A stretch of DNA of 27,046 nucleotides from Acidithiobacillus ferruginosus (GTDB taxonomy: Bacteria; Pseudomonadota; Gammaproteobacteria; Acidithiobacillales; Acidithiobacillaceae). The stretch covers positions 1 to 27,046 of the forward strand of contig NZ_JABBDR010000213.1 of the NCBI RefSeq assembly GCF_018854495.1. The letters are read 5' to 3'. The notes beneath the pieces are model-generated. The model did no database searches. It was not told where the DNA came from and saw only the letters and a list, made by a program, of their open reading frames with translations. Below are positions 1 through 24,798 of the stretch, piece after piece (within the stretch, counting starts at the first letter, position 1; each line of letters opens with the position of its first letter). Made by a program: the position numbers and the translations under genes.

Positions 1-981
1 CGCACTGCGGAGGGCCGCGACGGACACCGCCGTAAGGTCAAAGCCCACCCCACCGGGCAAGACCCGGTCCATAAGGTAGCGATGCCCGATATAGCGCTGA
101 TTCTCCCGCAGCAGATCCTCCTTGAGCGCCTGAAACTGGGTCAGAGCGAAGGCCAGTCCGGCGTCGTTGCCGAGGGCGCCGATGTCACCGAGGTGATTGG
201 CCAGGCGCTCCCGTTCCAGGCAGAGGGCGCGCAACCATTGGGCGCGCTCCGGGACCTGCATCGCGGCGATCTGCTCCACCGCCTGGGCATAACTCCACGC
301 ATACGCCACCGTGCTATCGCCGCTGATCCGTCCGGCCAGACGTGCGCCTGCGTCCACATCCAGGCCCTGGAGCAGGCGTTCCACCCCTTTGTGTGTATAG
401 CCGAAGCGTTCCTCCAGGTGCAGAATCTCTTCTCCCAGGACCTGGAAGCGGAAGTGCCCCGGCTCGATGATGCCGGCATGTATGGGGCCCACCGGAATCT
501 CATGGGCATCCGGGCTGGCTGCAGACACGAAGGCATAGTCTCCGTCGCCGGTCGTAGCCAGGTTTTCAACGCAAAAATCCGTGCGTAGGGGAAACTGATC
601 CGCAGGCCATGCGGCATGCCGCAGCCAGGGACGGGTGTCGCCGTTCCCCGCGCGAATGCCCAGCAGGTCGTATAGGGCGCGTTCCATGCGCAGCGCGCCC
701 GGAAAAATGGCGGCCAGGCTCGGGCAGGACGCCGCAGCCGGGTCTACGATCATCTCCGTATGCACGATGCCCGTCTCCGCCAAAAAGGCCGCATGGACGA
801 GATAACCAGGTTCTTCCGTACGGCGGTCCTCGCCCCAGAGGGCCAGCAGGCGACCCCCCTGCGCATGGATGTTTTCGGCGGCAAGGAGCCAATACTCTTT
901 GCAGAGGCGACCGGACCATACCGGCAAGGTCGTGCCCCATTGCCGGAAATCGGTCAGTACGCGCAGTGCGGGGTTGGGCAT
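1..981 (-). CDS. HyfG/HycE-like large subunit lacking N-terminal NiFe cysteines (partial, 3' end outside window)
   Basis: The frame is open from the ATG at 981 to base 1 (327 residues) with no stop; the C-terminus lies off the left edge. Residues about 1-140 resemble the NuoC/30-kDa domain (ERALYDLLGI followed by RPWL and FPLRTDF). From about residue 150 the protein resembles the NuoD/HycE large subunit (EIPVGPIHAGIIEPGHFRF, then YTHKGVERLL). In true group 4 hydrogenases the next motif is R-[IV]-C-G-x-C. Here it reads R218-I-S220-G-D-S223, so both Ni ligands are serine. The second, C-terminal cysteine pair cannot be seen. The start lies 10 nt after the HyfF-like stop, so it belongs to the same operon. 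Family knowledge: Ehr complexes keep the quinone/ion-pump architecture but have lost NiFe ligands. I infer a non-hydrogenase peripheral subunit. Confidence 0.85.
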   Translation of the reverse strand, partial: MPNPALRVLTDFRQWGTTLPVWSGRLCKEYWLLAAENIHAQGGRLLALWGEDRRTEEPGYLVHAAFLAETGIVHTEMIVDPAAASCPSLAAIFPGALRMERALYDLLGIRAGNGDTRPWLRHAAWPADQFPLRTDFCVENLATTGDGDYAFVSAASPDAHEIPVGPIHAGIIEPGHFRFQVLGEEILHLEERFGYTHKGVERLLQGLDVDAGARLAGRISGDSTVAYAWSYAQAVEQIAAMQVPERAQWLRALCLERERLANHLGDIGALGNDAGLAFALTQFQALKEDLLRENQRYIGHRYLMDRVLPGGVGFDLTAVSVAALRSA

Positions 982-991
982 GATGGCGTCC

Positions 992-2449
992 CTATCCGTG
1001 GAGAAGCTGGGCGGCGTGCTGCATCCACTGGACCAGCGTCAAGGGGATGAACACCCCGAGCATGGCGACGAGGGTCAATTGGACGAAGACCGGAATGATG
1101 CCGACGACGGACTGGCGCGCAACGCCTTCCTGATGCGCCCCGAAGACCATACCCTGCATGCGCGGGAAAATCCCGGCGAAAGCTACACCCAACCCCAGCA
1201 GGAGTAGGGGCGTGAGCCAGGGCTGGGCCTGCAGGGTGCTGGTGATGATCAGAAATTCGCTCAAGAAGAGCCCGCTGGGGGGCATTCCCAGGATGAACAG
1301 CACCGCCAGCATAAACGCCCAGCCCAGCAAGGGGCTGAATTCCAGCATACCGCGGATGCGCTGGATTTCACGGCTGCCGACGTCCTGTACCGCTTGCCCG
1401 ACCGAAAAAAATACCGAGGACTTGGTCAGGCTGTGGCTGACCATGTGCAGCAAGCCCGCAAAGCTCGCTAGTGGCCCGCCGATCCCGAAGGCGAAGGTGG
1501 CCAGCCCCATATGCTCGATGGAGGAATAGGCGAAAAGCCGCTTTACATCCCGTTGCCGCAGCATGGAAAAGCCTGCCACCAGCAGGGAGAGCAAACCGAA
1601 ACCCATCAGCAGGTGGCTGGCGAAGTCCCGACCCAGAGCGCCATCCACCAGTACCTTGGCGCGCAGGATGGCGTAGAGGGCGACATTGAGCAACAGGCCG
1701 GAGAGCACCGCCGAAACCGAACTGGGGCCGCTGGCGTGAGCATCCGGCAGCCAGTTGTTGAGGGGGGTCAGGCCGATTTTGGTGCCGTAGCCCACCAGCA
1801 TGAAGATGAAAGCGATGGCCATGACCTGCGGCTCCAACTGATGGCGCACGGCCGCCAGATGCGTCCACAACAATGCGTCTGCACCGTGCCCCATGATTTT
1901 CTGGGCGGCGAAATACAGCAGGATCGTACCGAATAGCGCCATCGCCAGACCGACGCCGCAGAGGATGAAATACTTCCAGGCCGCCTCCAGGCCCTCCGCG
2001 GTGCGGAAGAGGCTCACCAGCAGTACCGTGGACAGGGTGGCGCCTTCCATGGCCACCCAGAGGATGCCCATATTGTTGGTCAGCAGGGCCAGCAGCATGG
2101 TGGCGAGAAAGGTCTGGAACATGGCGTGATAAAGGCGGACACGCCGACGAGAGAGCGACCAGTGCACCGTTTCGTGCAGCATATAGTTGCGGGAGAACCA
2201 CGCCGTACTGAGCCCTACCACGCCATCCACCAGTACCAGCACGATACTGAGATCATCCACCAAGAATTGCCCGCCGCCCGCGGTAAATGCGCCGTCTTGC
2301 AGCACCTGTATGGCCAGGGCCAGGATGGCCAGCAGCGTCAGCGTATTGAAGCCGATGAACATCGCCGCCCCCCGGCGTCCGTCGCCCCAGAGGGCTAGCA
2401 GGGGGATGCCCATCGCCGCACAAGCCAGAACCAGCAGAATCAGCATCAT
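992..2449 (-). CDS. hyfF: HyfF-like proton-translocating membrane subunit (NuoL/M/N antiporter family)
   Basis: This 485-residue, highly hydrophobic protein has the antiporter-like core of complex I and formate hydrogenlyase. The conserved TM5 glutamate is in VAMEGATL (E135). The TM7 lysine is in GYGTKIGLTPLNNWLPDAH (K224), followed by RDVKRLFAYSSIEHMG and SHSLTKSSVFF. These charged residues form the proton path in the family, so ion pumping is expected. The length is somewhat below E. coli HyfF. The first ATG (2449) overlaps the hyfE stop as ATGA. A GGGAGG lies only 1 nt from that ATG and 4 nt from the next one (2446), so the second ATG may be the true start. It is an inner-membrane protein in the same operon as hyfE and the HyfG-like gene. 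Confidence 0.88.
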   Translation of the reverse strand: MMLILLVLACAAMGIPLLALWGDGRRGAAMFIGFNTLTLLAILALAIQVLQDGAFTAGGGQFLVDDLSIVLVLVDGVVGLSTAWFSRNYMLHETVHWSLSRRRVRLYHAMFQTFLATMLLALLTNNMGILWVAMEGATLSTVLLVSLFRTAEGLEAAWKYFILCGVGLAMALFGTILLYFAAQKIMGHGADALLWTHLAAVRHQLEPQVMAIAFIFMLVGYGTKIGLTPLNNWLPDAHASGPSSVSAVLSGLLLNVALYAILRAKVLVDGALGRDFASHLLMGFGLLSLLVAGFSMLRQRDVKRLFAYSSIEHMGLATFAFGIGGPLASFAGLLHMVSHSLTKSSVFFSVGQAVQDVGSREIQRIRGMLEFSPLLGWAFMLAVLFILGMPPSGLFLSEFLIITSTLQAQPWLTPLLLLGLGVAFAGIFPRMQGMVFGAHQEGVARQSVVGIIPVFVQLTLVAMLGVFIPLTLVQWMQHAAQLLHG

Positions 2450-3123
2450 TCCTCCCGGATATGTTCCAGATTCTGGAGATCCATGCTGTCGAAGGTCTCC
2501 CGTATCTGAAAAAAGAACACGCCGAGAATGACGAAACCGATCAGGGCATCCAGGGCCACCCCCAGTTCCACGATCATCGGCATACCCAGGGTGGCGCTGG
2601 TGGCGGCGAAGAAGAGGCCGTTATCGATGGCCAGAAAACCCACCACCTGAGAAATGGCCTTGCGCCGCGTGATCATCATCAGGAAAGCGAGCAGTACGGC
2701 GGCGAGGGCAATGCCGACCATGCCGCGGGTCACGGGGCCGGTCAGGGCGGTGATGGGGGCGGCAAGGGAGAATGCGAAGATGACCAGCGCGATGCCGGCG
2801 AGCAGGGTCAGGGGGATGTTGAGCACAGCCTCCACATCGCCATGCACTTGCAGGCGTCGTAACAGACGATGCAGTACCGTTGGGATCAGAATGGCCTTCA
2901 GCCCCAGGGTCAGGGCTGCGGAAAACCACAATTCCGTCTGCCCGGTCAGCAGCGCCACCAGCGCCGTGCCGGCCGCGAGGACTACTCCCTGCCAAGCGAG
3001 GAGATGGATCAGCGTGAGGAGACGCCGTTGCGCCAGCATGGCGAAAGCGAGCAGCAGGAGGAGGGCGGCGAGGAGCCTCAGCAGGGGGATGCCCCAGGCG
3101 AGTCCCTGTGCGGTGATGGTCAT
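2446..3123 (-). CDS. hyfE: HyfE-like membrane subunit
   Basis: A 225-residue membrane protein with about seven hydrophobic segments. The C-terminal half carries the HyfE hallmark AISQVVGFLAIDNGLFF followed by GMPMIVELGVALDALIG, the NuoK-like part of the subunit with a buried glutamate. HyfE sits between the HyfC anchor and the antiporter modules. The start is 1 nt past the hyfC stop, and the end overlaps the start of the HyfF-like gene by 4 nt. The length is close to E. coli HyfE. The family assignment is firm; the role in this complex is inferred from operon context. Confidence 0.87.
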   Translation of the reverse strand: MTITAQGLAWGIPLLRLLAALLLLLAFAMLAQRRLLTLIHLLAWQGVVLAAGTALVALLTGQTELWFSAALTLGLKAILIPTVLHRLLRRLQVHGDVEAVLNIPLTLLAGIALVIFAFSLAAPITALTGPVTRGMVGIALAAVLLAFLMMITRRKAISQVVGFLAIDNGLFFAATSATLGMPMIVELGVALDALIGFVILGVFFFQIRETFDSMDLQNLEHIREE

Positions 3124-3124
3124 G

Positions 3125-4066
3125 TCATGCCCCCAGCATAAAAAAGGTCAGAAGCCCGATGACCCCGAGCAGAAAGGCGGTGGCCATGAACTCCGGGGCG
3201 CGGAAAAGTCGGAGCTTGGCGAGCAGGGTTTCGATCAGTGCCAGGATCACGGCGGCGCCAGCGAATTTCAGCAGCAGGACTGGCAGGGTCACGGGCAGTG
3301 ACGCGACTTCTGCGGTAGGCACGATACCCCAGGGCAGGAACAACGCAATACCGATGGCCACATAGAGCGTCAGCTTGATCTGCGCCCCCCACTCCATGAG
3401 TGCGAGGTGTCGTCCCGAGTACTCCAGGAGCATGGCTTCGTGAATCATGGTCAGTTCCAGGTGGGTAGCGGGATTGTCCACGGGAATTCGCGCGTTTTCC
3501 GCCAGCAGCACGATGAAAAAGGCGGCGGCCGCGAAAACCATGCTGGGGTGCAGGGCGAAGCGGAGTTGCTCCAAATGGGCCACGATCACGCTCAGCGAAG
3601 TGGACCGGGAGAGCAGGGACGCCGTAAAGAGTGTGGCCAGCAGGGCGGGCTCCGCGAGTCCGGCGATCAGCATTTCGCGATGGGCGCCCAGGGTGGCGAA
3701 GGGTGTCCCCGTGTCCATGGCCGCCAGCACCTGAAAAACCCGTGCCAGGGCGAACAAACCCACCAGGGCGATGACGTCGGCGGCCGGTGCCAGAGGCAGG
3801 CCGGTGGCAAGGATGGGGACGATCGCCGCCGCCAGACAGAACGCGCCGAAAATCCCGTAAGGGGCAAAGCGGAAGAGCCAGGACGTGCCCTCCGCCTGTA
3901 GAGATTCTTTATGGAACAGGCGATACAGATCACGGTAGTTCTGCCAGCAGCCTGCCGGTCGCCGGTTTTGCAGGATCGCCCGCAAGGCCCGCAGCAACCC
4001 CGCAAAGAGTGGCGCCAGAAATGCCACCAGCAGTACCTGTGCCAGTTCTAGCAGTATGCCGGTCAT
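3125..4066 (-). CDS. hyfC: HyfC-like membrane anchor subunit (NuoH/HycD family)
   Basis: A 313-residue membrane protein of the NuoH/HycD family, which couples the peripheral arm to the membrane arm. The diagnostic stretch ENARIPVDNPATHLELTMIH, continuing into EAMLLEYSG, is present, with conserved acidic residues of the loop facing the quinone or electron-transfer site. I chose the ATG at 4066 because it overlaps the hyfB stop as ATGA and gives the natural hydrophobic N-terminus MTGILLELAQVLLVAF. The frame extends upstream to 4165, but that part only mirrors hyfB. It is co-transcribed with hyfB and hyfE. Confidence 0.88.
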   Translation of the reverse strand: MTGILLELAQVLLVAFLAPLFAGLLRALRAILQNRRPAGCWQNYRDLYRLFHKESLQAEGTSWLFRFAPYGIFGAFCLAAAIVPILATGLPLAPAADVIALVGLFALARVFQVLAAMDTGTPFATLGAHREMLIAGLAEPALLATLFTASLLSRSTSLSVIVAHLEQLRFALHPSMVFAAAAFFIVLLAENARIPVDNPATHLELTMIHEAMLLEYSGRHLALMEWGAQIKLTLYVAIGIALFLPWGIVPTAEVASLPVTLPVLLLKFAGAAVILALIETLLAKLRLFRAPEFMATAFLLGVIGLLTFFMLGA

Positions 4067-6045
4067 CGCCAGACCGCCAGCAGGATCAGCAGGGTCAGGA
4101 AGCTGTAGAGCAGATACAGGGTGATGCGGCCCTGCTGCAGGCGCAGCACCTGAGCCGAGAGCCATAAGGCAAGAAGGCTCAGGGGTTGGTAGAAGCCACG
4201 GTACAGGGGTTCTCCGATCCGCATGCGCCAGCGGCCGGCGCCGTCTACCTCCCGTTCCGCCTGGTACAGCGGGGCGAAGATGCGCAGCAGGGGTTGCGCA
4301 AACCCCAGTGAACTATCCTGCATGGCCGGCGTCCGGACGGGAAAACCGCAGGCCCAGGCCGGCACCCGCCGCAGGGGCCGGCCAAAAAAGCTCCAGATCA
4401 GGAGAAAACTCAGCCCCAGGGCGGTGGCCATGCCGAGGAAGAAAATGGCCGGACTGTAACTGGCGCGTTGCGCGGAGACCGGGGTCAGCCACAGCCCCTG
4501 CTGGACGGCGAAGCCTTGGCCGAGCATCTCCTGCAGTACGGGATGCAGCAGATTCAACAGGACACCCGGAAAGAGTCCGAGGAAAATACAGGCGACACTC
4601 AGCAGGGCCATGGCCGAGCGTTCCCAGCGTCCGGCCTCATGGGCATGCCGTGCGCCGCGCGCCTGGCCGAGAAAGGCGATACCGTAAAACTTGACCATGG
4701 CATAGGCCGCCAGCGCTACCGCCAGCACGACGCCGGAGGCCGCCAGGGGCAATACCGCGCTGAGGGTGCTTTGGGGCAAGGCGGGCGACAGCAGGAACGC
4801 CTGCAGGAGCAGCCATTCAGAGACGAAGCCGTTGAGGGGGGGTAGCCCGGCGATGGCGAGGGTGCCGAGGAGCATGAAGAATGCGGTTTGAGGCATCTGC
4901 CGGATCAGGCCGCCCAGTCGATCCATGGACACGCTGCCCGCTCCGTGCAGTACGCTGCCGCTGCCGAGAAAAAGCAGACCCTTGAAGAAGGCGTGGTTCA
5001 GGGCGTGATACAGAGCGGCGGCCAGAGCCAAGGCCGCCAGGGCACCGAGTCCATGGGCGCGGAAGATCAGGGCGAGGCCGAAGGCCACCATGATCAGCCC
5101 CATGTTTTCTATGGAGGAATAGGCCAGCAGGCGTTTCATGTCCGTCTGGACGGCGGCGAAAAGCACACCGAAGAGGGCCGTCGCCAGGCCCACCCCCAGT
5201 ACAAAGGGACCCCACCACGTGGCCAGCTTGCCGAGAAAGAGAAAGTCCACCCGCAACATGCCATAGAAGGCCATCTGCAGCATTGCCCCGCTCATCAGCG
5301 CGGAGACCGGGGCGGGGGCGGCAGGATGGGCATCCGGCAGCCAGATGTGGAGGGGAAGCAAGCCCGCCTTGGCACTGAATCCAAAAAAGGTCAGGAGAAA
5401 GGCGGCCGATGCCCAGAACGGATCGAGGGGGGCGTGCAGCATGGCGCTGAACGGCCCTCCCTGGGCTATGGCCGCTCCGGCGAGGAGGACGAAGCCCAGC
5501 AAAATGGCCAGCGCCCCAAGGTGGGCGATGAGCAGATAGAGGAAACCGGCATGACGGCTGCCCGCCTCTTCATGCTCCGTCACCACCAGGAAATACGAGG
5601 CCAGCGCCATGATTTCCCAGGCGACCAGGAAAGTGAAGGCATTGGCCGCTAGCAGAACCAGTCCCATCCCCAGCAGAAAGGTGTGGTATTGGAGCATGAG
5701 CCGACGCAGTGCCGGTCTCGACAGGGCGCGGAAATAGCCGGTGGCAAACAGCGTTACCGCGAAGGCTAGCAACCCCAGCAGAATCAGGAAAAATCCCGAG
5801 AGGGGATCGATCTGGAAAGACCAGGGCAAGGCGGGCAGGGGTCCGCGCAGTTGCAGTTGGTCTGGAGGGGCCGTCAGCGCGCTGAACCCGGAAACGGCCA
5901 GCAGCAGGGCAACCACGCTGCTGAGGGGGAAGATCAACCGGCAGGCGGCGGTTGGCCAGCCGCCCAGCAGAAAGCCCAGTAGCCCCAGACCCAGCCAGAG
6001 CAGTAATGCCCCAGTGGCGAGATCCAGAGGCAGGCAGGAGATCAC
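4063..6045 (-). CDS. hyfB: HyfB-like proton-translocating membrane subunit (NuoL/M family, long form)
   Basis: A 660-residue polytopic protein of the NuoL/HyfB type. The ion-path residues are visible: TM5 glutamate in FLVAWEIMALASYF (E144), TM7 lysine in GFSAKAGLLPLHIWLPDAH (K226), then DMKRLLAYSSIENMG and ALNHAFFKGLLFLGSG. The extra C-terminal region (from about residue 560) fits the long HyfB/HycC form. The start codon is GTG at 6045 and overlaps the stop of the upstream XRE-cupin regulator (GTGA), implying translational coupling. No HyfA-type ferredoxin gene lies between the regulator and this gene. HyfD is also absent, so the visible operon has two antiporter modules (HyfB, HyfF). Confidence 0.9.
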   Translation of the reverse strand: MISCLPLDLATGALLLWLGLGLLGFLLGGWPTAACRLIFPLSSVVALLLAVSGFSALTAPPDQLQLRGPLPALPWSFQIDPLSGFFLILLGLLAFAVTLFATGYFRALSRPALRRLMLQYHTFLLGMGLVLLAANAFTFLVAWEIMALASYFLVVTEHEEAGSRHAGFLYLLIAHLGALAILLGFVLLAGAAIAQGGPFSAMLHAPLDPFWASAAFLLTFFGFSAKAGLLPLHIWLPDAHPAAPAPVSALMSGAMLQMAFYGMLRVDFLFLGKLATWWGPFVLGVGLATALFGVLFAAVQTDMKRLLAYSSIENMGLIMVAFGLALIFRAHGLGALAALALAAALYHALNHAFFKGLLFLGSGSVLHGAGSVSMDRLGGLIRQMPQTAFFMLLGTLAIAGLPPLNGFVSEWLLLQAFLLSPALPQSTLSAVLPLAASGVVLAVALAAYAMVKFYGIAFLGQARGARHAHEAGRWERSAMALLSVACIFLGLFPGVLLNLLHPVLQEMLGQGFAVQQGLWLTPVSAQRASYSPAIFFLGMATALGLSFLLIWSFFGRPLRRVPAWACGFPVRTPAMQDSSLGFAQPLLRIFAPLYQAEREVDGAGRWRMRIGEPLYRGFYQPLSLLALWLSAQVLRLQQGRITLYLLYSFLTLLILLAVWR

Positions 6046-6587
6046 TGAGCTACCACCACCAACAGGGTCGTTGCGGAGTGGCCACGGTTGTGCCAGTTGT
6101 GGGGCAGACGCGGATCATAGTAAATGGCGTCGCCTTCCCCCAGTTCCGTAGTCACCCCGGATTGCTCAAAAGCGGCTGTCCCGCGGATGACGATGGTGAA
6201 TTCTTCTCCTTCGGCGCTGGTATAGGGGTGCTCACCACACTCTCCGCCCGGTTCAAGTACCATCAGCAGCGGTTGCATTTTCTTTTGTGGCAGGCCGCGG
6301 GCCAGCGGTTCCAGTGAAGCGTGGGAACCGGCACTGTAAAACTTGCGTCGGCCACCGCTACGCATGATCCATGGCAAACCCGCCGTTTCACCGTCATCGA
6401 AAATCGCGGCGATGGGAATCTGCAGCGCCGCGCAGATTTTTTCCAGTGTGGCGATGGAGGGGGAGTTCTGCCCGGCCTCGATCTGCGAAAGGGCACTGGG
6501 TGAAATTTCGGCACGCGCCGCCAGTCCGCGCACGGACCATCCCTTATCTTCGCGAAGTTGCCGAATTTTTTTGCAGACCTGTTCCAT
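6042..6587 (-). CDS. XRE-family regulator with C-terminal cupin domain
   Basis: The 181-residue protein starts with a helix-turn-helix of the XRE/Cro type (residues about 5-62: IRQLREDKGWSVRGLAARAE, then SALSQIEAGQNSPSIATLEKIC). It ends with a cupin_2 domain (about 105-178: MVLEPGGECGEHPYTSAEGE, later LGEGDAIYYDPRLPHNWHN). Such proteins are usually one-component transcription factors whose cupin senses a small molecule. It is the first gene of the Hyf-like operon, and its stop overlaps the hyfB GTG, so I infer that it autoregulates and controls that complex. No Shine-Dalgarno is visible before the ATG; a possible -10 lies only 8 nt upstream. The effector is unknown. Confidence 0.88.
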   Translation of the reverse strand: MEQVCKKIRQLREDKGWSVRGLAARAEISPSALSQIEAGQNSPSIATLEKICAALQIPIAAIFDDGETAGLPWIMRSGGRRKFYSAGSHASLEPLARGLPQKKMQPLLMVLEPGGECGEHPYTSAEGEEFTIVIRGTAAFEQSGVTTELGEGDAIYYDPRLPHNWHNRGHSATTLLVVVAQ

Positions 6588-6595
6588 GGGCGGAA

Positions 6596-6624
6596 AGTGT
6601 ACGTTAAAACACGCGCCATGTAAT
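6596..6624 (-). promoter_or_regulatory. Candidate promoter of the XRE-cupin/Hyf-like operon
   Basis: On the minus strand ATTACA (6624-6619) is followed after 17 bp by TACACT (6601-6596). The ATG of the regulator begins 8 nt after the -10 box, so the transcript may be leaderless. Each box matches the consensus in four of six positions. Only 57 bp separate the ychF stop from this gene, so read-through from ychF is an alternative. Confidence 0.35.
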
Positions 6625-6644
6625 CTATTTTGGACGGTATTCCC

Positions 6645-7736
6645 CTACACGTTGAACAAAAAGTTCAGCACATCCCCATCCTGCACCACGTATTCCTTTC
6701 CTTCCGCGCGCATCTTGCCCGCTTCCTTCGCCCCCTGCTCACCTTTGTACCGGATAAAATCGTCATAGGCGATGGTCTGGGCGCGGATGAAGCCGCGTTC
6801 GAAATCGCTGTGGATCACGCCCGCCGCCTGTGGCGCTGTGGCGCCCACCGGGATGGTCCAGGCGCGGACCTCCTTGACGCCGGCAGTGAAGTAAGTCTGC
6901 AGACCCAGTAAACGGTAAGCCGCACGGATGATGCGGTGGAGGCCGGGCTCCTCCAGCCCCAAGTCCTGCAAGAAAGCGCTTTGCTCCTCCGGTTCCAGTT
7001 CTGCCAGCTCTGATTCTATGGCGGCGCAGACAGGCACCACACTCGCATGCCGTTCGGTCGCCCAGGCTTCCAGGGGGGCACGCCAGGGGCCATCCTGCAA
7101 CTCGTCCTCAGCGACATTGGCAATAACCATGAGGGGTTTCATGGTCAGCAGACAGAGGCTGCGCAGATGCTCTTGCTCCTCACTGTTCAGGTTCAGGCTG
7201 GCGGCTGGCTTTCCTTCATTCAGATGGGGCAGGAGGCGGGCCATGGCGGCGACTTCGGCCACCGCATCCTTGTTGCCGCCCTTGGCCTGTCGCGCCACCC
7301 GTGCCTGGGCCTTCTCCACGGTGCCGAGATCGGCCAGAATCAGCTCCGTCAGCACCACCTCCAGATCCGCCACCGGGTCTACATGGCCACTCACATGGAC
7401 CACGTTGGGGTCCTCAAAGCAGCGGGTGACCAAGGCAATGGCGTCTGTCTCACGGATATGGGCGAGAAACTGGTTGCCCAGACCCTCACCCTGCGCCGCG
7501 CCGGCCACCAGTCCGGCGATATCCACGAACTCCATGGTGGCGTGTTGTACCTTCTGTGGTTTGACGATCTCTGACAGGGCCTCAAGACGGGGATCCGGCA
7601 CGGCAACCAGCCCGACATTGGGCTCGATCGTACAGAAGGGATAGTTTTCCGCCGCGATGCCCGCCCTGGTGATGGCGTTGAAAAGGGTGGATTTGCCGAC
7701 GTTGGGTAAGCCGACGATGCCGCAGGCCAAAGCCAT
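6645..7736 (-). CDS. ychF: Redox-regulated P-loop ATPase/GTPase YchF (OLA1 family)
   Basis: The 363-residue length matches the family. The G1/Walker A motif is G9-LPNVGKS16, the G3 motif is in [11 protein letters not shown], and the family-specific NxxE (in [10 protein letters not shown]) replaces NKxD, which is why YchF binds ATP as well as GTP. The TGS domain closes the protein ([18 protein letters not shown] to the C-terminal FLFNV). YchF is a cytoplasmic, ribosome-associated ATPase. The gene follows pth by 9 nt, a pairing seen in many proteobacteria, and ends the mrdA-rplY-pth-ychF run. I see no T-rich terminator hairpin behind it. Confidence 0.97.
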
Positions 7737-8942: not shown

Positions 8943-10853
8943 TTATGGTATCGCGGATTGAGCGGGGCGAGGGTTGACAGAACCTTTCTCCCCAATGGCA
9001 AGGGGCGCATCATAATGCGCCGCGGTTTTTTCGGCAACCGTTTCCGGCATTTTTTCATTGGGCTGTAAATAGGCATTGATCACTGCGCGGGCTACCGGCA
9101 GGGCTTGCCAGGCATTATGCCCACCATATTCCACCACGACGGCGACGGCGATTTTGGGGTGATGTACCGGTGCCCAGCCGATAAAAAGAGAGTCGTTGTT
9201 ATAGACGGTGTGGCCATTTTTGTATCCCACCGGGACTTGCGCGGTGCCCGTCTTCCCGGCAATGGTGATGCCGGGGATGCTGATCGTATGGCAGGTTCCG
9301 CTGGTGACACAGGCCTCCATGCCTTTACGCACCGCCTGCATGGCCTCCGCCGAAATGTGGAGATCGGTGGGCGGTGCATCGGGGATGGGCTCCACCCTGC
9401 CATTGTCCGGATTGATGAAGGCTTTGGCCACCTGGGGCTGGACCAGATAGCCGCCGTTGGCGAGCGCGGAGACCGCCCGCGCCAATTGCAGGGGGGTCTC
9501 CAGAAGATACCCTTGGCCGATTCCGAGAATGACGGAGTCCCCGGTGTACCACGGGGCATGCAGATGCGCCTGCTTCCAGGCGGGGGTGGGCACCAGGCCA
9601 CTGGCCCCCCCCGGCAGATCGATGGGTGGTTTGCTGCCGAAGCCAAATCGCCACAGGGTCTTGTCCTGCAGGGCGATGCCCATCTTCACCGCGAGTTTGT
9701 AGTAGAAAACATCCACCGACCAGGTCAATGCCTTGGTCAGACCGGTGTTGCCAAATCCTCCCCGGTTCCAGTCCCAGTAGGTATGGCCGCCAAGCTGATA
9801 ATTGCCCGCGCAGAAGGTATGGTAATCGGGCGCAATGACGCCTGCCTGTATCGCCTCTATAGAATAAAAGGGCTTGGCACAGGAACCTGGCGGGTAGAGG
9901 CCATTGTCGGCGCGATTCATCAATGGGCGACCCGGATTGTCCAGGAGACTCTGCCAGTGGGCCGTGCTGATACCATCCACGAACCAGTTGGCATTGAAGC
10001 TGGGGCTGGTCACCATGGCCAGTATGGCGCCATTGTTCGGGTTCATGGCGACGACCGCGCCGCGATACCCCTTGCCCTGCAGGGCAAGTGCCCCCGCCTC
10101 CTGAACCCGCACCCGCAGGTGGGTGAGCAAATTTTCGCCAGGGCGCGCCGGGATCTCGCGCAGGGTGCCCACCTGCAGGCCGCGCGCATTGATATCCTTG
10201 ATCTGATAACCCATGGTGCCGCGGAGCTGGCGTTCATAATAGCGTTCCAGGCCATTCTTGCCGATATAGTTGCGTCCGACATAGTTGCTGGCGCGAAAAT
10301 CCTTGAGGTCGGTGGCGGTAATCGGGCCGACATAGCCGACGACGTGGGAAAAGAGCGCGTCGTAGGGATAATGGCGGTGAAGCATGGCGACCACCTGCAC
10401 CCCGGGCAGATCCAGCGCGCGCACGGCTACCGCGGCGATCTGTGCCGGTGTCAGACCGGCCTTGAGCACCACCGGATCGAAATCCGGTCTGCCCATGCGC
10501 CGTTCCCGAAAGCGGCGCATATCGTTCGCGTCCAGCCCGAGCAATTGCTGCAGGCGCTGCAACGTGTCCTGCAGTTTGGGCACTTGGTCGGGGGTGATTT
10601 CCAGGGCATAGGTGGGCTCATTTTCGGCCAGTACCGCGCCATGATCGGCCAGCACCAGGCCGCGGGGTGGGGCGACGGGCACGAGAGCCACATGATTATC
10701 GTAGGCCAGGGTGCGAAATTTGGAATAATGCAGCACCTGCAGGTCCACGACGCGCAGCACGACGACCAGTATCGCCAGCCACATTAGACCGGCTGCCACC
10801 CCTAGTCGGAAGCGGAAGCTGCGAATACGTTTCTCGTGATCAGAAAGGGACAT
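8943..10853 (-). CDS. mrdA: Penicillin-binding protein 2 (peptidoglycan transpeptidase, elongasome)
   Basis: A 636-residue class B PBP. It has a short cytoplasmic N-terminus, one membrane anchor (about residues 17-40), the PBP dimer domain (about 60-235) and the transpeptidase domain. The catalytic SxxK is S324-C-A-K327 in YPPGSCAKPF, the SxN-equivalent is S379-V-D381, and KTG is K534-T-G536 in IAGKTGTAQ. It cross-links peptidoglycan during side-wall growth in the periplasm. The cysteine next to the catalytic serine is unusual, because most homologues have Thr there. mreBCD and rodA are not adjacent; rplY follows after 12 nt. Confidence 0.95.
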   Translation of the reverse strand: MSLSDHEKRIRSFRFRLGVAAGLMWLAILVVVLRVVDLQVLHYSKFRTLAYDNHVALVPVAPPRGLVLADHGAVLAENEPTYALEITPDQVPKLQDTLQRLQQLLGLDANDMRRFRERRMGRPDFDPVVLKAGLTPAQIAAVAVRALDLPGVQVVAMLHRHYPYDALFSHVVGYVGPITATDLKDFRASNYVGRNYIGKNGLERYYERQLRGTMGYQIKDINARGLQVGTLREIPARPGENLLTHLRVRVQEAGALALQGKGYRGAVVAMNPNNGAILAMVTSPSFNANWFVDGISTAHWQSLLDNPGRPLMNRADNGLYPPGSCAKPFYSIEAIQAGVIAPDYHTFCAGNYQLGGHTYWDWNRGGFGNTGLTKALTWSVDVFYYKLAVKMGIALQDKTLWRFGFGSKPPIDLPGGASGLVPTPAWKQAHLHAPWYTGDSVILGIGQGYLLETPLQLARAVSALANGGYLVQPQVAKAFINPDNGRVEPIPDAPPTDLHISAEAMQAVRKGMEACVTSGTCHTISIPGITIAGKTGTAQVPVGYKNGHTVYNNDSLFIGWAPVHHPKIAVAVVVEYGGHNAWQALPVARAVINAYLQPNEKMPETVAEKTAAHYDAPLAIGEKGSVNPRPAQSAIP

Positions 10854-10876
10854 AACCGGGAATGACCTGATTCAGT

Positions 10877-10905
10877 TTGCAAATGGCTGGGACGCTTCGT
10901 ACACT
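10877..10905 (+). promoter_or_regulatory. Candidate promoter for the zapB-like/zapA genes
   Basis: TTGCAA (10877-10882) and TACACT (10900-10905) are separated by 17 bp and point toward the zapB-like gene. Each box has four of six consensus bases. It lies in the short gap divergent from mrdA. Confidence 0.45.
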
Positions 10906-10940
10906 CGAAAGCAAAATCCTTGGAGAGATGGGGTGGCGCA

Positions 10941-11177
10941 GTGGTGGAGTCCCGTTTTGAATCCCTGTTCATAGAGCTGGAGAGCATTATAACGGATTAT
11001 CGTGGCCTGCGTCGTCATCTCGAGGGCGACGGCCGCGACAGGCGTTCCCTGCAGGCGCTGCAGAAGCAAATCCAGATGCTGGATGCGGAAAATACCCTGC
11101 TGCGGGAGCGTCAGGAGGCAATATGTCTGCGACTCAGCGAACTGCTCACGCAGGTGAGTCGTTGGGAAAACGAATAA
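10941..11177 (+). CDS. Small coiled-coil protein preceding zapA (ZapB-like / TIGR02449-type)
   Basis: A short, strongly heptad-patterned protein (SLQALQKQIQMLDAENTLLR, then SELLTQVSRWE) directly ahead of zapA. Many gammaproteobacteria have such a short coiled-coil gene there. A role near the Z-ring is an inference from position and coiled-coil character. The start is uncertain. A TTG at 10920 has no ribosome binding site, whereas the tandem GTGs at 10941 and 10944 sit 7-10 nt behind GGGG. I use 10941, which gives 78 residues. It has no enzymatic motif and no signal peptide. Confidence 0.75.
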   Translation: MVESRFESLFIELESIITDYRGLRRHLEGDGRDRRSLQALQKQIQMLDAENTLLRERQEAICLRLSELLTQVSRWENE

Positions 11178-11192
11178 AGAACACCCAGACAG

Positions 11193-11519
11193 ATGGAGAA
11201 GACCGTGCCCGAAGCGACCCGTAATTCCGCCACCAACCGCGTCAACATCAACCTGATGGGACAAAGTTATCAGGTACCCTGTCTGCCCGAAGAGCAAACG
11301 CTGCTTCTGGAGGCGGTGGCTCTGCTCAATCAACAGCTCGACGCCGCCCGCGCGCAGGGGCGGACGATCAGCAAGGAGCGCACTGCTCTGATGGTGGCGG
11401 TCAATCTGGCCGCAGACCTGCAGCGCGCCCGCCAGGAGGTGCAGGCGCGCGATGAACAGCTCGATCGGCTGGAGAATCGCCTGCGCCGGCTGGTTGACAT
11501 GGGTAGGGGGGCAGAGTAG
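11193..11519 (+). CDS. zapA: Cell division protein ZapA
   Basis: ZapA bundles FtsZ filaments at midcell. The N-terminal globular part is recognisable (NRVNINLMGQSYQVPCLPEE), followed by a long helix and coiled coil (about residues 35-105). The 108-residue length is typical. The ATG at 11193 lacks a Shine-Dalgarno. A GTG at 11205 has GGAG six bases upstream and may be the real start (104 residues). The last 26 bases contain the 6S RNA promoter. The neighbour order (coiled-coil gene, zapA, 6S RNA, 5-formyl-THF cyclo-ligase) is conserved in gammaproteobacteria and supports the call. Confidence 0.93.
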   Translation: MEKTVPEATRNSATNRVNINLMGQSYQVPCLPEEQTLLLEAVALLNQQLDAARAQGRTISKERTALMVAVNLAADLQRARQEVQARDEQLDRLENRLRRLVDMGRGAE

Positions 11520-11522
11520 CTT
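11494..11522 (+). promoter_or_regulatory. Promoter of 6S RNA, inside the 3' end of zapA
   Basis: A perfect -35 TTGACA (11494-11499) and TAGCTT (11517-11522) are separated by 17 bp, at the end of the zapA frame. Initiation would fall near 11528, at the expected 5' end of the 6S RNA. Confidence 0.6.
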
Positions 11523-11526
11523 GGTT

Positions 11527-11712
11527 ACTGCCTCCTGCGGGGCTCGAGTGGCCGAGATGATTCCTGAACCAACATTGTCTATCCAGGGTATCCCCAGTCA
11601 TCGCCGTGGTGTGCCGCTCCCTTGCGGAGTAGCCTGAAGCGGTGTGTGGATTCCCACCTGTACATCAGGTTCATGGGGTAGCGGGCTGCACGACCCAGGC
11701 GGGGGGTTCCTT
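11527..11712 (+). ncRNA. ssrS: 6S RNA (regulator of RNA polymerase)
   Basis: The roughly 185-nt non-coding stretch between zapA and the 5-formyl-THF cyclo-ligase gene is the conserved site of ssrS. The 5' CCTCCTG (from 11532) pairs with 3' CAGGCGGG (from 11696) with one bulged base, closing the terminal stem. An internal hairpin (CCGCTCCCTTGCGGAG) and a mostly unpaired centre are compatible with the open-promoter mimic. 6S RNA binds the sigma-70 holoenzyme and tunes transcription with growth phase. The exact ends are estimated from the promoter and the closing stem. Confidence 0.85.
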
Positions 11713-11749
11713 ATTTCCAGGGCAGGATGATCTGCCGACCAAAAGTCAG

Positions 11750-12325
11750 TTGCGCCGACGGATGCGTCAGCAGCGACGTGCGCTATCGCCAGAGGCGTTG
11801 CACTATGCCGCCACGGCCCTCGCCAGTCACCTCGTGCGTCTCAAGCACTTTCGGCGGGCGCGGCATATCGGACTCTACTGGCCCATGCAGGGCGAAATCA
11901 GCCCCTTGCCGCTCATGCAGCATCCCACAGCCGTCAACAAGCATTTTTATCTGCCGGTACTGGCCGGGCACTTTGCGCGCAGCCTCCGCTTTGCGCCTTT
12001 TTATCCGCACATGAACCTGCGCAGCAATCGCTTTCACATCCCGGAACCGCAGGTGCCCCCAGGCTGTCAGCGGTCGGTACGCGAGCTGGATCTGCTGATC
12101 CTGCCGCTGGTTGCCTTCGACGCGGAGGGGTACCGTCTGGGGATGGGCGGCGGTTTCTATGATCGCAGCCTGGCGCATTTGCCCCATCGCCGCAGTTGGC
12201 GGCGCCCGCGTTTGATTGGTGTCGGGCATGCCTTTCAGGAGGTGCCCCGGCTGCCCAGAGAGCCCTGGGATATCCCACTGGGCATCGTTTGTACAGAAAA
12301 AGGCTGTTACCGGGTCGGATCATGA
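11750..12325 (+). CDS. 5-formyltetrahydrofolate cyclo-ligase (5,10-methenyl-THF synthetase)
   Basis: It converts 5-formyl-THF to 5,10-methenyl-THF with ATP. The N-terminal basic segment LRRRMRQQRRALSPEA, the middle IGLYWPMQGEISP and the signature GYRLGMGGGFYDRSL are present. E. coli YgfA/FAU1 is the equivalent gene, co-transcribed with 6S RNA. The start is unclear. A GTG at 11642 lies inside the 6S RNA. TTG at 11750 (used here) has no ribosome binding site and trims the N-terminus. A CTG at 11732 sits 4 nt behind AGGA, and an ATG at 11762 cuts into the conserved basic segment. The stop overlaps the ymdB-type gene (ATGA). Confidence 0.9.
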   Translation: MRRRMRQQRRALSPEALHYAATALASHLVRLKHFRRARHIGLYWPMQGEISPLPLMQHPTAVNKHFYLPVLAGHFARSLRFAPFYPHMNLRSNRFHIPEPQVPPGCQRSVRELDLLILPLVAFDAEGYRLGMGGGFYDRSLAHLPHRRSWRRPRLIGVGHAFQEVPRLPREPWDIPLGIVCTEKGCYRVGS

Positions 12326-13125
12326 TGGCACAAATATTGTTTGCCGGTGATGTGATGGGGTCCGCAGGAAGGCGTGCCCTGCGGTTGGCGTTGGCGCGGC
12401 TGCGGCAGGAGGGGCCGCTGGACGCGGTGGTGGTAAATGGGGAGAACGCCGCCGGCGGTATGGGGATCACGGCGACCATCGTCCGGGAATTCCGCGGTTG
12501 GGGCGTGGATGTGATTACCGCCGGGAACCATGTCTGGGATCAGCGGGAGGCGCTGACCTTCATCCGGGAGGAGCCGCGCCTGCTGCGGCCCTGCAATGCG
12601 CCGCCGGGCACACCGGGAGCGGGCTGGGTGGTGGTGGAGGCGCAGGGCGGCTGGCGTCTGGGGGTGCTCAATCTCATGGGACGGCTGTTCATGCATCCGG
12701 TGTATGATTGCCCGTTCCGTACCGCGGATGCCGTGCTGGCGCAAGAGGCGATGGATTGCGATGTCGTCCTCGTCGATATGCACGCCGAAGCCACCAGTGA
12801 GAAGACGGCCATGGGCTGGCACCTGGCGGGCCGTGTGGCCGGCGTCATGGGCAGCCACACCCATGTGCCTACGGCGGATGAGCGAGTGCTCCCTGGCGGC
12901 ACGGCCTACCAGAGCGATGCCGGCATGTGCGGTTGCTACGACTCGGTGATCGGCGTGGACAGGGACGCCGCCATTCGCCGCTTCATTACCGCCCTGCCTG
13001 GCCACGGAGAAGCGGTGGACGGCGTGGCCACCTTTTGCGGCCTGCTGATGACGGTGGATACGGGCACCGGCCGATGCAGCGCCGTGCGTCGTGTGCGTTA
13101 CGATTTTCCGCAGGAAATATCCTGA
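12322..13125 (+). CDS. YmdB-family metallophosphoesterase (TIGR00282 type)
   Basis: A 267-residue calcineurin-like phosphoesterase. Metal-binding motifs are in order: GDVMG (D10), NGENAAGG (about 39-46), GNHVWD (about 66), DMHAEATSEK (about 154) and GSHTHVPTAD, followed by DAGMCG. Relatives hydrolyse 2',3'-cyclic nucleotides in vitro and affect RNA levels and biofilm in Bacillus; the role here is unknown. I chose the ATG at 12322 because it overlaps the cyclo-ligase stop as ATGA; a second ATG at 12325 is equally possible. Its 3' end stands 2 bp from the convergent M61 peptidase gene, with no terminator hairpin between. Confidence 0.92.
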   Translation: MMAQILFAGDVMGSAGRRALRLALARLRQEGPLDAVVVNGENAAGGMGITATIVREFRGWGVDVITAGNHVWDQREALTFIREEPRLLRPCNAPPGTPGAGWVVVEAQGGWRLGVLNLMGRLFMHPVYDCPFRTADAVLAQEAMDCDVVLVDMHAEATSEKTAMGWHLAGRVAGVMGSHTHVPTADERVLPGGTAYQSDAGMCGCYDSVIGVDRDAAIRRFITALPGHGEAVDGVATFCGLLMTVDTGTGRCSAVRRVRYDFPQEIS

Positions 13126-13127
13126 GA

Positions 13128-14951
13128 TCACTCCCCGTCCGGTAGGAAAGCGCTCCGGGACGCTTCACCGGCCGCGCCCGTTCCCTCCAGCCAGGCGCGG
13201 CGACGCGCGAGGACCACATCATCTACGTCCTCCAGCAATTCCAGCCAGGCCGTATCCCGTGGTGGCGGAGTAGGGGTCACGTGGGTTTCCCGGAGGATGT
13301 CGTCACGGAAGAACTGAATGCGCAGCGCCGCGCCCTCTGGAACCGCATCCAGTTGCTCCGGTAATTGTTCTGCCGTAGTCCGGACGCCATCCAGGGCGAC
13401 GAGAATGTCGTCCGGCGACAGACCCGCCTGCTCCGCAGGGCTGTCCGTCTGCACATGGCGCAACTGCACACCCAGCGCATGGGGCAACCACTGCGCACCA
13501 AGCCATGCGCGCAGGGTTTTCTCTGCGGGCTGTCCACCTTCATCCTGCGGGCCGCTGGCCGCGCGCAGGCGCAGCGCAACGCCCATTTCCGCGAGCAGCG
13601 CCGGCAACGGTAAGTCGGTCCTCGCCGTGATCCAGTCCTGCAGACGCCCGGCGAGCGCAGGCCCGGCGAGGTTTTCGACTATCCCGACACACTGGCCTTC
13701 CGGCAGGGGGATGCCGGTGCGTCCGTAATCCTGCCACAGGCGCACAAGTACCGTGTCCAGGCTCAGGGCGCCGGCACTCTCCAGACGCAGACTGAGGTCC
13801 AGGCAGAGAGCGAGCAGGGCGCCCTTGTTGTAATAGCTGATCTCAAAGTTGGCGCTGTTGACATGGGGATGATAGAGCCTGATCCAGGCATCTTCACTGG
13901 ATTCCGCCACGCTTTGCAGGAAACGTCCCGGGCGGCGCAGCAGGCGGGTAAGCTCCTTCCCGACCCCGCACAAATATTGCGCGGGGGTCGTCAAACCGGC
14001 ACGACGCAGGCAGAGGTCGTCATAATAGGAGGTGATACCCTCGAAGACCCAGAGATCGCGAGTGAGCACCTCCCGGTCCAGTGCGCTGGCGCCGAGCACC
14101 GCGGGACGGATGGCCTGCACCAGCCAGCCATGAAAATACTCGTGGCTGGCCAGACCCAGAAAACGCCGGTAGTGGTCTTCGTTGCGACCGCTCAGGTCAT
14201 CCCGGGCGCAGAGGAGGGCGCTGGACGCGCGGTGCTCCAGCCCGCCATAGCCGTCGGTGCTGGTCATGCATAGAAAGTGATACCCGGCAAAGGCGGCATC
14301 CCCCCAGAAGCGCTGCTGCCAGTCGCAGATGCGGGTCAGGTCGGCACCGAGACGTTGCAGGTCCGCCTGGTGAGTGCCCTGGATAAGCAAATGATGGGGC
14401 CGTTCTCCCACGTCGAAATCCAGCAGGGTAAGGGACCCCATGAGCACTGGATGATCGATGAGGGCATCATAGCCGGGGGCTTCAAAACCGCCCCAGCTCC
14501 ACTCCGCACCGCTTTGGCGGGGGAGGGCGGTGGCTACCTGCCAGTCTTCGGGGCCTTCGAGGAGGACCGCGTGGGTTTGTGTCTCCTGTCCGGACACCCG
14601 CAGGTAGATGGCCGGGCCGTTGAAAAAGCCCCCCTGGTCATCCAGATATGCGGTCCGTACCGAGCGGTCGAAGGCATAGACGGCGTAACGGACGACCACC
14701 GGGCCATGCCCTGGCGCAAGTCGCCAGCGGTCTTTGGCGATTTTGCGCAGGGCGATATCCTGTCCGTTGCGTTCTGCGCGAATTTGGGTTACATGGCGGG
14801 CGAGGTCGCGGATGGTGTAGCTGCCGGGCACCCAGGCGGGCAGGGCGAGGATCTGTCCTTCCGGGTCCGCTTCGGAAATGCTCAGAGTTACCCGAAAAAG
14901 ATGGGCCTGCGGCTCGGGGTTGATCCGGTAACTCAGTGGGGCAATGGTCAA
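13128..14951 (-). CDS. M61-family metallopeptidase with C-terminal PDZ domain
   Basis: From the TTG at 14951 the protein has 607 residues. The N-terminal M61 beta domain (INPEPQAHLFRVTL to VPGSYTIRDLARHV) is followed by the catalytic zinc motif H270-E-Y-F-H274-G and the third ligand E304 in WVFEGITSYY, with YGGLEH upstream. A PDZ domain lies at about 495-570 (LRHVQTDSPAEQAGLSPDDI). Relatives are glycyl aminopeptidases. The TTG was chosen because AGGAAGG lies 5 nt upstream. The frame extends to 15104, but that part mirrors the isochorismatase gene. No signal peptide is seen, so it is probably cytoplasmic. It starts 10 nt after the isochorismatase-type gene. Confidence 0.9.
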   Translation of the reverse strand: MTIAPLSYRINPEPQAHLFRVTLSISEADPEGQILALPAWVPGSYTIRDLARHVTQIRAERNGQDIALRKIAKDRWRLAPGHGPVVVRYAVYAFDRSVRTAYLDDQGGFFNGPAIYLRVSGQETQTHAVLLEGPEDWQVATALPRQSGAEWSWGGFEAPGYDALIDHPVLMGSLTLLDFDVGERPHHLLIQGTHQADLQRLGADLTRICDWQQRFWGDAAFAGYHFLCMTSTDGYGGLEHRASSALLCARDDLSGRNEDHYRRFLGLASHEYFHGWLVQAIRPAVLGASALDREVLTRDLWVFEGITSYYDDLCLRRAGLTTPAQYLCGVGKELTRLLRRPGRFLQSVAESSEDAWIRLYHPHVNSANFEISYYNKGALLALCLDLSLRLESAGALSLDTVLVRLWQDYGRTGIPLPEGQCVGIVENLAGPALAGRLQDWITARTDLPLPALLAEMGVALRLRAASGPQDEGGQPAEKTLRAWLGAQWLPHALGVQLRHVQTDSPAEQAGLSPDDILVALDGVRTTAEQLPEQLDAVPEGAALRIQFFRDDILRETHVTPTPPPRDTAWLELLEDVDDVVLARRRAWLEGTGAAGEASRSAFLPDGE

Positions 14952-23665: not shown

Positions 23666-24700
23666 ATGCGTTGGGCAGTGCTGGGCGGCGGTCACTGGGG
23701 GACGGCGCTGGCCGTATATCTGCTGCGCCAGAGGCATATCGTGCAGCTTTGGGGACGGCGCGCCGAGCACCTGCCCTGTCAGCCCTCCCGGACGGACCTT
23801 TTCCCCGTATTTCCAGAGTGCGCGCGGCCGGAAGGACTGCACTGCACGGTGGACCTCGCCGCTGCGGTACGGGGCAGCGAGGGTATCGTCCTTGCGGTGC
23901 CCAGTCATGCGTTGCGTGGCCTACTGACGCATCTGCTCCCCTGTCTGCCGCCCACCGCGCTGCTCGTCCTCGCCAGTAAAGGGCTGGAAGTGCCGAGCGC
24001 CTTGCGCCTCGACCAGGTATTACGGGAAATCTTGCCGGAGGCGCCTCTGGTGGTGCTTTCCGGCCCGAGTTTCGCCCATGACCTGATGCTCGGCAAACCA
24101 CTGGCGATGACGGCGGCGTCCACCGATCCGACCTATGCCCAGCGGGTGGCCGAGGCCTTTGGCAGTGCGCAGATGCGGGTCTACACCAGTGATGATGTAG
24201 CGGGCGTCTGTCTCGGCGGGGCGATCAAGAATGTGCTGGCCATTGCCGCCGGGATTTCCGATGGTCTGGGCAATGGCGACAGTGCCCGTGCCGCGCTCAT
24301 CACCCGTGGGATGGCGGAGTTGCATCGCCTGGGAACGGCGCTGGGAGGACGAACCGAGACCTTCATGGGTCTGGCCGGTGCCGGTGACCTGATCCTCACG
24401 TCCTGCAGTGATCTCTCGCGGAACCGGCGGGTGGGGCTGGGCCTGGGCGGCGGCCTGAGCCTGGAAGCGGTGCTGCGCGGGATTGGCGAGGAGGCCGAGG
24501 GGGTACGCACGGCGCAGGCCTTGTTTCAGCTTGCGCAGAGCCTGGGGGTGGATATGCCGATTACCGAACAGGTCTATCGCGTGCTGTTCGAGGGCGCCGC
24601 GCCGCGCGCCGCGAGCGATGAACTGATGCGCCGCGCCCTGCGTTCCGAGTTGCATGTTGCAGATGACGGCGCCCCTGGGGGCGCCGCAAGAACCGAGTGA
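23666..24700 (+). CDS. gpsA: NAD(P)-dependent glycerol-3-phosphate dehydrogenase
   Basis: It reduces dihydroxyacetone phosphate to sn-glycerol-3-phosphate, the backbone for phospholipids. The nucleotide-binding loop is VLGGGHWGTALA (5-16), followed by SKGLE and SGPSFAHDLMLGKP. The catalytic lysine is in GGAIKNVLAIAAGISDGLG, and GLAGAGDLILTSCSDLSRNR is diagnostic. The 344-residue length is slightly above average because of a Gly/Ala-rich tail. That tail is encoded by an 8-bp GC hairpin (GGCGCCCC at 24668 with GGGGCGCC at 24678) that lacks a T-run. The start lies 3 nt after secB. Confidence 0.96.
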   Translation: MRWAVLGGGHWGTALAVYLLRQRHIVQLWGRRAEHLPCQPSRTDLFPVFPECARPEGLHCTVDLAAAVRGSEGIVLAVPSHALRGLLTHLLPCLPPTALLVLASKGLEVPSALRLDQVLREILPEAPLVVLSGPSFAHDLMLGKPLAMTAASTDPTYAQRVAEAFGSAQMRVYTSDDVAGVCLGGAIKNVLAIAAGISDGLGNGDSARAALITRGMAELHRLGTALGGRTETFMGLAGAGDLILTSCSDLSRNRRVGLGLGGGLSLEAVLRGIGEEAEGVRTAQALFQLAQSLGVDMPITEQVYRVLFEGAAPRAASDELMRRALRSELHVADDGAPGGAARTE

Positions 24701-24753
24701 CGGCGACGAGTCGCGCAGCGCCGACCAGGGTGGGCGGCATAGGGCTGCAAGAC

Positions 24754-24782: not shown

Positions 24783-24798
24783 GCCGCCAGATGACAGG

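Follow-up and report, generated by a model that had tools for sequence, protein, structure and literature searches.

The window (the whole stretch of DNA analysed here, 27,046 nucleotides of Acidithiobacillus ferruginosus) is contig C127 from its first base; the genome, of 3.0 Mb, is assembled in 309 contigs. On its minus strand the window carries an operon with the gene order HTH-cupin regulator, hyfB, hyfC, hyfE, hyfF and hyfG (Table 1). Overlaps or gaps between these genes are about 10 bases at most, and the operon is intact. In full it comprises hyfBCEFGI as one cluster, with hyfBCEFG in the window and hyfI on contig C298 of the same genome. C298 also carries the rest of the large-subunit gene hyfG (here ehrL, with the product EhrL) and, following hyfI, the genes cbbM, cbbQ, cbbO and a convergent cbbR-like gene.

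Table 1. Features of the Ehr operon in the window.
Feature	Position	Strand	Basis or remark
Contig end shared with contig C298 (identical sequence)	1..33	.	33-bp end overlap
ehrL/hyfG, large subunit	1..981	-	first 327 of 515 aa; remainder on C298
RISGDS motif in place of hydrogenase RxCGxC	313..330	-	translation and alignment to HycE C241/C244
hyfF, antiporter-like membrane subunit	992..2449	-	NF005045 hydrogenase 4 subunit F, 796 bits against a cut-off of 543
hyfE, membrane subunit	2446..3123	-	NF008556 hydrogenase 4 membrane subunit, E 3e-19, below cut-off
hyfC, NuoH-like membrane subunit	3125..4066	-	PF00146, E 5.5e-35
hyfB, antiporter-like membrane subunit	4063..6045	-	NF005086 hydrogenase 4 subunit B, 805 bits against a cut-off of 667
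HTH-cupin regulator, first operon gene	6042..6587	-	PF01381 and PF07883; 4-bp overlap with hyfB

The large subunit matches the Pfam family Complex1_30kDa; its match to NiFeSe_Hases is weak and sub-threshold, and its NuoD-type NCBIfam matches all stay below cut-off, the NuoD equivalog cut-offs being unreached. Stretches of it are 82–88% identical in loci L005–L007. HyfE has no match in a Pfam search. Comparison with L005 places the start of hyfC likely at 4066, the longest open reading frame beginning at 4165. Thirteen Acidithiobacillaceae loci reach that far, and 12 of them, all but L130, have a homologue of the regulator 5' of hyfB. A scan of window positions 5900–7000 found no promoter or terminator. 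At 24697–27044 on the plus strand, squalene/phytoene-synthase-like and squalene-hopene-cyclase-like reading frames were recognised by eye in the translation, which suggests hopanoid genes.

The original prediction held that both N-terminal NiFe-ligand cysteines of the large subunit are replaced by serine, and this is what we find. Residues 218–223, encoded by codons 330..313 of the minus strand, read R218-I-S-G-D-S223, with Ser220 (AGC) at 324..322, Asp222 at 316–318 and Ser223 (AGC) at 315..313; the wider interval first assigned to the feature, 292–331, covers RISGDSTVAYAWS. HMMER aligns RISGDS with R-V-C-G-I-C of E. coli HycE, and both the HMMER and the MAFFT alignments pair S220 and S223 with C241 and C244. 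Leftward extension gives the same picture for the second motif: C298 supplies the EhrL C-terminus ...NKSFNLSYSGHDL, to a total of 515 residues, and DPCxxC is absent. The C298-encoded part terminates FPLINKSFNLSYSGHDL at residue 515, with NLSYSGHDL as the final motif. HycE C241, C244, C531 and C534 thus correspond to Ser, Ser, Ser and Gly in EhrL, and all four NiFe ligands are gone. EhrL ends three residues past the fourth ligand position, HycE (569 residues) running 35 residues beyond C534, and a C-terminal extension of the type removed by a maturation protease is absent from EhrL.

The replacement is shared by the relatives of EhrL. We aligned 93 family sequences. Of the 80 loci, 77 contributed, after three truncated at contig ends were dropped, and 16 further loci were added, some of which are near-duplicates of the 77. 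The four ligand columns hold Ser in 90, Cys in 2 and Val in 1; Ser in 51, Thr in 41 and Ala in 1; Ser in 89, Ala in 3 and Asn in 1; and Gly in all 93. Invariant throughout are Asp224, Asn505, Lys506, Ser507, Tyr512, Gly514 and Asp516 (numbered as in the L005 reference row, two higher than in the window); opposite the first three HycE has Ile, Ile and Gly. Among the best 120 database proteins the ligand columns read S119/I1, S116/N2/T2, S117/T2/N1 and G120, with no Cys at any of the four positions, and Asp224, Asn505 and Lys506 are kept in 120, 120 and 119 of them. The large subunits of L010 and L012 (2 of the 93) have Cys at the first ligand position only.

A sequencing error at the serine codons is not likely, because the same columns are mostly Ser or Thr in the 93 sequences and free of Cys in the best 120, and both motifs are kept across Ehr family sequences. 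A pseudogene is ruled out as well, the motifs being kept across the family and the operon being intact and tightly packed. The ligand site of the large subunit appears, as judged from sequence, to be a conserved replacement pocket, rebuilt and under selection and not decaying, because the replacement residues are conserved across the family and in the best 120 database proteins.

Of the two genes to be looked for further to the left, hyfI is present on C298, and the HyfH gene is absent from the operon. HyfI retains the four cysteines that bind the proximal [4Fe-4S] cluster, as does every one of the 75 rows of a HyfI/NuoB alignment (74 loci, one entered twice, with E. coli HyfI, NuoB and two paralogues included and matches below 140 bits excluded). 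The operon, which holds the regulator, hyfBCEFGI and then the cbb genes, contains no ferredoxin-type gene of the HyfA or HyfH kind and no electron-input genes of the NuoEFG/NuoI kind. The claim that all membrane subunits keep their ion-path residues, which we take to be the TM5 Glu, TM7 Lys, TM8 Lys and TM12 Glu together with the acidic stretch of HyfC, holds in part, most of them being kept. HyfB and HyfF have the TM5 Glu, TM7 Lys and TM12 Glu; the TM8 Lys is replaced by Gln in HyfB and by Asn in HyfF (E. coli HyfF likewise has Asn), and HyfC reads PATH where E. coli HyfC has the acidic stretch AEAE.

Complexes named energy-converting hydrogenase-related (Ehr) are said to have been described by Coppi in 2005 and by Marreiros in 2013. 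In a tree of 33 of the 93 Ehr sequences, with the catalytic enzymes represented by HycE and HyfG only and long branches flagged by the program, the Ehr sequences form one clade (support 100/100) with E. coli HycE and HyfG outside; Ehr and two complexes, A and B, encoded on contig C124 of the same genome are joined at 98/96. The proposed assignment of the window complex to Ehr is thus borne out by the missing ligand motifs, by the gene set hyfBCEFGI without HyfA/HyfH and by the single clade outside HycE/HyfG, the only catalytic sequences compared, and we regard this identity as near certain. Ehr is widespread, with at least 8000 scored database candidates matched. Complexes A and B are encoded by two further Hyf-like clusters on the minus strand of C124 (L085, genome G000; 320–1897 and 9989–11716). 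Their large subunits are without the Cys motifs and end in ...TWGLSVAENDR and ...SFGLTIAGCDR. The small subunit of cluster B is fused to ferredoxin-type domains; the rest of cluster A, which is accompanied by DUF211, is on contig C205 (the contig ends overlap by 71 bp), and an Nramp gene comes after it there.

Ehr complexes have the subunit set of complex I and group 4 hydrogenases and no NiFe ligands (PMC10284858, PMC12342949, PMC4378227, PMC6349859, PMC7894505); the first four of these sources (PMC10284858, PMC12342949, PMC4378227, PMC6349859) describe what they do as unknown or untested. A 2018 paper (PMC6002666) gives the motifs SGD[TS][TS][AV][GA]Y and NLSYSGHDL for all Acidithiobacillus spp. 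Ligand loss is thus already known for Ehr and has been printed for Acidithiobacillus, and its novelty is lower than the original prediction implied. The 'group 4 hydrogenase' hyfBCEFGI of Acidithiobacillus (AFE2149-54 of A. ferrooxidans, named hyf in PMC2621215; the fdh-mhy cluster of A. thiooxidans) is the same complex by its genes and its motif; earlier papers treat it as a hydrogenase or a formate hydrogenlyase, whereas we regard it as Ehr.

E. coli hydrogenase-3 and -4 (HycE, HyfG) have homologous B, C, E, F, G and I subunits, and the small subunit with the proximal [4Fe-4S] cluster is shared with group 4 [NiFe] hydrogenases. However, unlike the E. coli enzymes, the window complex is without the Cys ligands, the HyfA, HyfH and HyfD genes and the C-terminal extension. 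Respiratory complex I and the sulfane reductase MBS are NiFe-free relatives, matched among solved structures; in contrast to complex I, the Ehr operon is without NuoI/NuoEFG-type input genes. The CO2-hydration complexes DAB2 and cyanobacterial NDH-1MS have, like Ehr, membrane parts derived from complex I (PMC13144422), but a DabA-type carbonic-anhydrase subunit is absent from the Ehr operon. Ehr loci of Desulfuromonadales (L019–L021) have two HyfB, whereas the window has one. A further difference is that the complex of the window lies beside Rubisco genes and an HTH-cupin regulator.

This Rubisco neighbourhood was followed through the family, in 28 of the 29 Acidithiobacillaceae genomes among the matches listed; G028 (61% complete, without an Ehr match) was excluded. 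Ehr of the window type occurs in 18 of the 28, and a contig of G012 ends inside the gene, which leaves 17 assessable genomes; in 15 of these Ehr adjoins a Rubisco locus. Ehr stands before cbbM in six genomes (G000, G002, G008, G011, G013, G014). In G000 and G013 this order was pieced together from contig ends that overlap by 33 and 53 bases, and cbbQO are missing at the Ehr–cbbM locus in G002 and in G008 contig C312. Seven genomes (G001, G004, G005, G021, G022, G024, G026) have cbbMQO before the regulator and Ehr. The third arrangement, found in G017 and G020, runs Ehr, cbbR-like gene, Rubisco gene, cbbQ, cbbO; with about 34% identity to CbbM this Rubisco is presumably form I. The exceptions are G006, which retains the cbbR-like gene only, and G023, which has nothing adjacent. 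The cbbM of C298 is 96% identical to that of L005, which matches RuBisCO_large at 1e-121. A second EhrL-hyfI-cbbM-cbbQ-cbbO arrangement occupies positions 1–4123 of L153 (G008 contig C219), in the same assembly as L128; the G008 assembly may be mixed.

As a control we used 25 paralogous large-subunit loci among the matches listed (28–34% identity, four typed by tree, not counting complex I-like large subunits or short fragments), and none of the 25 had a Rubisco gene seen within 20 kb. Six of them (in G004, G019, G021, G022 and G026) lie on a Rubisco contig, at least 180 kb apart; the control is partial, since the remaining 19 have Rubisco on another contig and fragmented assemblies could hide neighbours. 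Across the 28 genomes Ehr and cbbM occur together in 14, Ehr only in four, cbbM only in two (as fragments) and neither in eight (Fisher p 0.005, ignoring relatedness); the linkage itself gives p 1e-9, and both values are descriptive only, because the genomes are related.

In A. ferrooxidans the cluster cbb5 comprises AFE_2155-58 and is tabulated without hyf in the accessible part of PMC6458275; the locus numbers of hyf (AFE2149-54) and cbb5 are consecutive. Co-occurrence of a core hyf cluster with carbon-fixation genes was noted for A. caldus in 2013 (PMC3826726). In the literature searched, with subscription papers such as Marreiros 2013 outside its range, we found no statement of an Ehr–Rubisco link. 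The link was not seen in other phyla: among the 80 loci cbbM is present in L005 and L006 only, both close relatives of the window. Outside the family 33 of 50 Ehr-bearing genomes are without a Rubisco match; Rubisco is not a general partner of Ehr, because no more than 17 of these genomes give a Rubisco-family match at all, and some of the matches are weak.

The commonest non-subunit neighbours in the 80 loci are SulP transporters, with two-component regulators second, in a screen of hand-picked reading frames, which covered 108 of the 280 upstream and 126 of the 328 downstream ones. One SulP query places SulP inside 15 of the 80 Ehr loci, or 16 if a broken copy in L048 is counted. In 50 genomes searched whole the 15 loci compare with 0.57 expected, and outside Methylococcales 4 of 37 compare with 0.195 expected; these expected values are valid for the 50 only, which were picked after the SulP result and retain every SulP locus, with the broken L048 copy counted as absent. 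The 30 omitted had none, and the rate is 15 of 80. Thirteen loci were assigned to Methylococcales by record titles. The four SulP loci outside this order belong to Geobacteraceae, Nitrospirae, Thiohalobacter and a gammaproteobacterium, and their SulP-STAS genes are placed variously: between hyfG and hyfI, upstream, downstream or divergent. The SulP cargo near Ehr may be sulfate or bicarbonate. In L020, a Geobacteraceae Ehr operon, a SulP-STAS-cNMP-binding gene lies between hyfG and hyfI at 11529–13799.

DabA was considered as a hidden partner of Ehr and rejected: it lies on contig C97, outside the operon, and occurs in 25 of the 28 family genomes with no complementary pattern. In 16 of the 19 genomes computed, or 16 of the 25 that bear DabA, no more than 20 kb separates it from a non-cbbM Rubisco gene; in the six DabA-bearing genomes beyond the 19 the two are on different contigs. 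This parallel to Ehr beside form II is suggestive, and if it holds, each Rubisco locus would have its own complex I-derived neighbour. Carbonic anhydrase was likewise rejected as a regular neighbour, lying outside the 25 most frequent neighbour families. A beta-carbonic anhydrase gene (PF00484) is present at 9337–9999 (minus strand) of L163, about 3–4 kb from the cbbR-cbbM-Ehr region of G005, and another core hyf cluster is reported to adjoin a beta-carbonic anhydrase (PMC3826726). CupA/B are reported absent from A. ferrooxidans in the accessible part of PMC6458275.

We suggest that Ehr is a complex I-related membrane machine, of the same stock as the formate-hydrogenlyase-type hydrogenases and built without the nickel-iron site. 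Going by its residues alone, the pocket beside the cluster would bind a small polar or anionic substrate instead of NiFe, and the reaction in the pocket may be coupled to ion movement through HyfB, HyfC, HyfE and HyfF. In Acidithiobacillaceae such a complex would support CO2 fixation by the adjacent Rubisco by way of the steep inward proton gradient of an acidophile, either by supplying or converting inorganic carbon or by keeping the cycle's protons and reductant in balance. We take this as the best reading because of the gene-neighbourhood evidence, which comes from one family, and hold it tentatively, at slightly less than an even chance.

Several facts stand against a role in carbon fixation. 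The cbbM transcript rises at high CO2 (PMC6458275), unlike what is expected of a carbon-scarcity pump. In A. ferrooxidans grown on H2, CbbM is the most abundant Rubisco and group 4 subunits go undetected in the accessible part of PMC7735108. DabA is already present in nearly all genomes of the family, G006 and G023 have Ehr without adjacent Rubisco, and most Ehr-bearing genomes outside the family are without a Rubisco match. The linkage comes from one family of related genomes, and cbbM may have its own promoter, because about 250 bp separate it from hyfI. The evidence for formate, given next, also counts against this role.

Electrons from a cytoplasmic formate dehydrogenase might drive ion translocation by Ehr, the released CO2 being fixed by the adjacent Rubisco. 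In Geobacter sulfurreducens all Ehr subunits are more abundant on formate than under hydrogen-containing conditions (PMC7894505), and complexes of formate dehydrogenase with Ehr have been proposed in Margulisbacteria and relatives (PMC6349859). Within the genus, the core hyf cluster of A. caldus reportedly has a formate dehydrogenase upstream, a few genes away (PMC3826726), a protein annotated as formate hydrogenlyase is upregulated in A. ferridurans (PMC12053936), and growth of A. ferrooxidans on formate is cited in PMC7735108. G021 has a molybdopterin oxidoreductase gene about 10 kb from cbbM; however, it is the only one of five gene-listed stretches with such a gene (judged by eye and with one Pfam check), molybdopterin families do not reach the 25 most frequent neighbour families beyond Acidithiobacillaceae, and the operon has no ferredoxin-type subunit to wire a formate dehydrogenase. 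We consider the link to formate unlikely, if well worth keeping in view.

The pocket might instead reduce or oxidise a quinone, polysulfide or a similar compound beside the single FeS cluster, as a redox pump unrelated to carbon, with Rubisco and SulP as mere neighbours. The archaeal MBS complex is NiFe-free and carries out analogous redox chemistry. The retained FeS ligands, the wide distribution of Ehr among organisms without Rubisco and the presence of NuoD and MBS chain 6u8y_L among the solved-structure matches are in line with such a pump. On the other hand, adjacency to Rubisco is kept across two gene orders and two Rubisco kinds, and the column of the NuoD Tyr, which presumably faces the quinone, is Gly in Ehr. 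We rate this pump just as unlikely as the link to formate.

Less probable again is genomic hitch-hiking, an account overlapping with the redox pump, by which Ehr and Rubisco would share an autotrophy island with no functional coupling. A small number of events in a single family could account for the two gene orders, related genomes do not count independently, and hyfI and cbbM may have separate promoters. Nevertheless, the linkage survives the change of order and of Rubisco gene, and only about 0.17 of 17 linked genomes would be expected by chance (assuming 3 Rubisco genes, a 3 Mb genome and a reach of 5 kb).

The role in carbon fixation can be put in a narrower form, with Ehr of Acidithiobacillaceae as a further complex I-derived inorganic-carbon machine alongside DAB2 and NDH-1MS: the polar Lys/Asp pocket would handle CO2 or bicarbonate, inward protons would give the reaction its direction, and the product would feed Rubisco; in other phyla SulP would be the partner gene in its stead. 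We regard the narrower form as distinctly improbable. Bicarbonate uptake, raised in passing by the original prediction, is backed circumstantially by the Rubisco and SulP genes nearby. A catalytic NiFe hydrogenase with unusual ligands is scarcely credible, since the homologous subunits and the HyfB and HyfF scores above the hydrogenase 4 cut-offs are set against the loss of four ligands family-wide, the missing C-terminal extension, the classification of the A. ferrooxidans cluster as non-hydrogenase by HydDB (PMC7735108) and A. thiooxidans, which carries these genes and in the accessible part of PMC6002666 is reported without growth on H2.

Many database Ehr sequences are still named hydrogenase or NADH-quinone oxidoreductase, and because Ehr bears such names, metabolic models of bioleaching bacteria, methanotrophs and nitrifiers can be misled. 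Its gene links, with Rubisco inside one family and with SulP anion transporters elsewhere, offer a concrete, testable lead on the function of Ehr. In Acidithiobacillaceae the adjacency of Ehr and Rubisco points to a possible role of this complex in carbon fixation.
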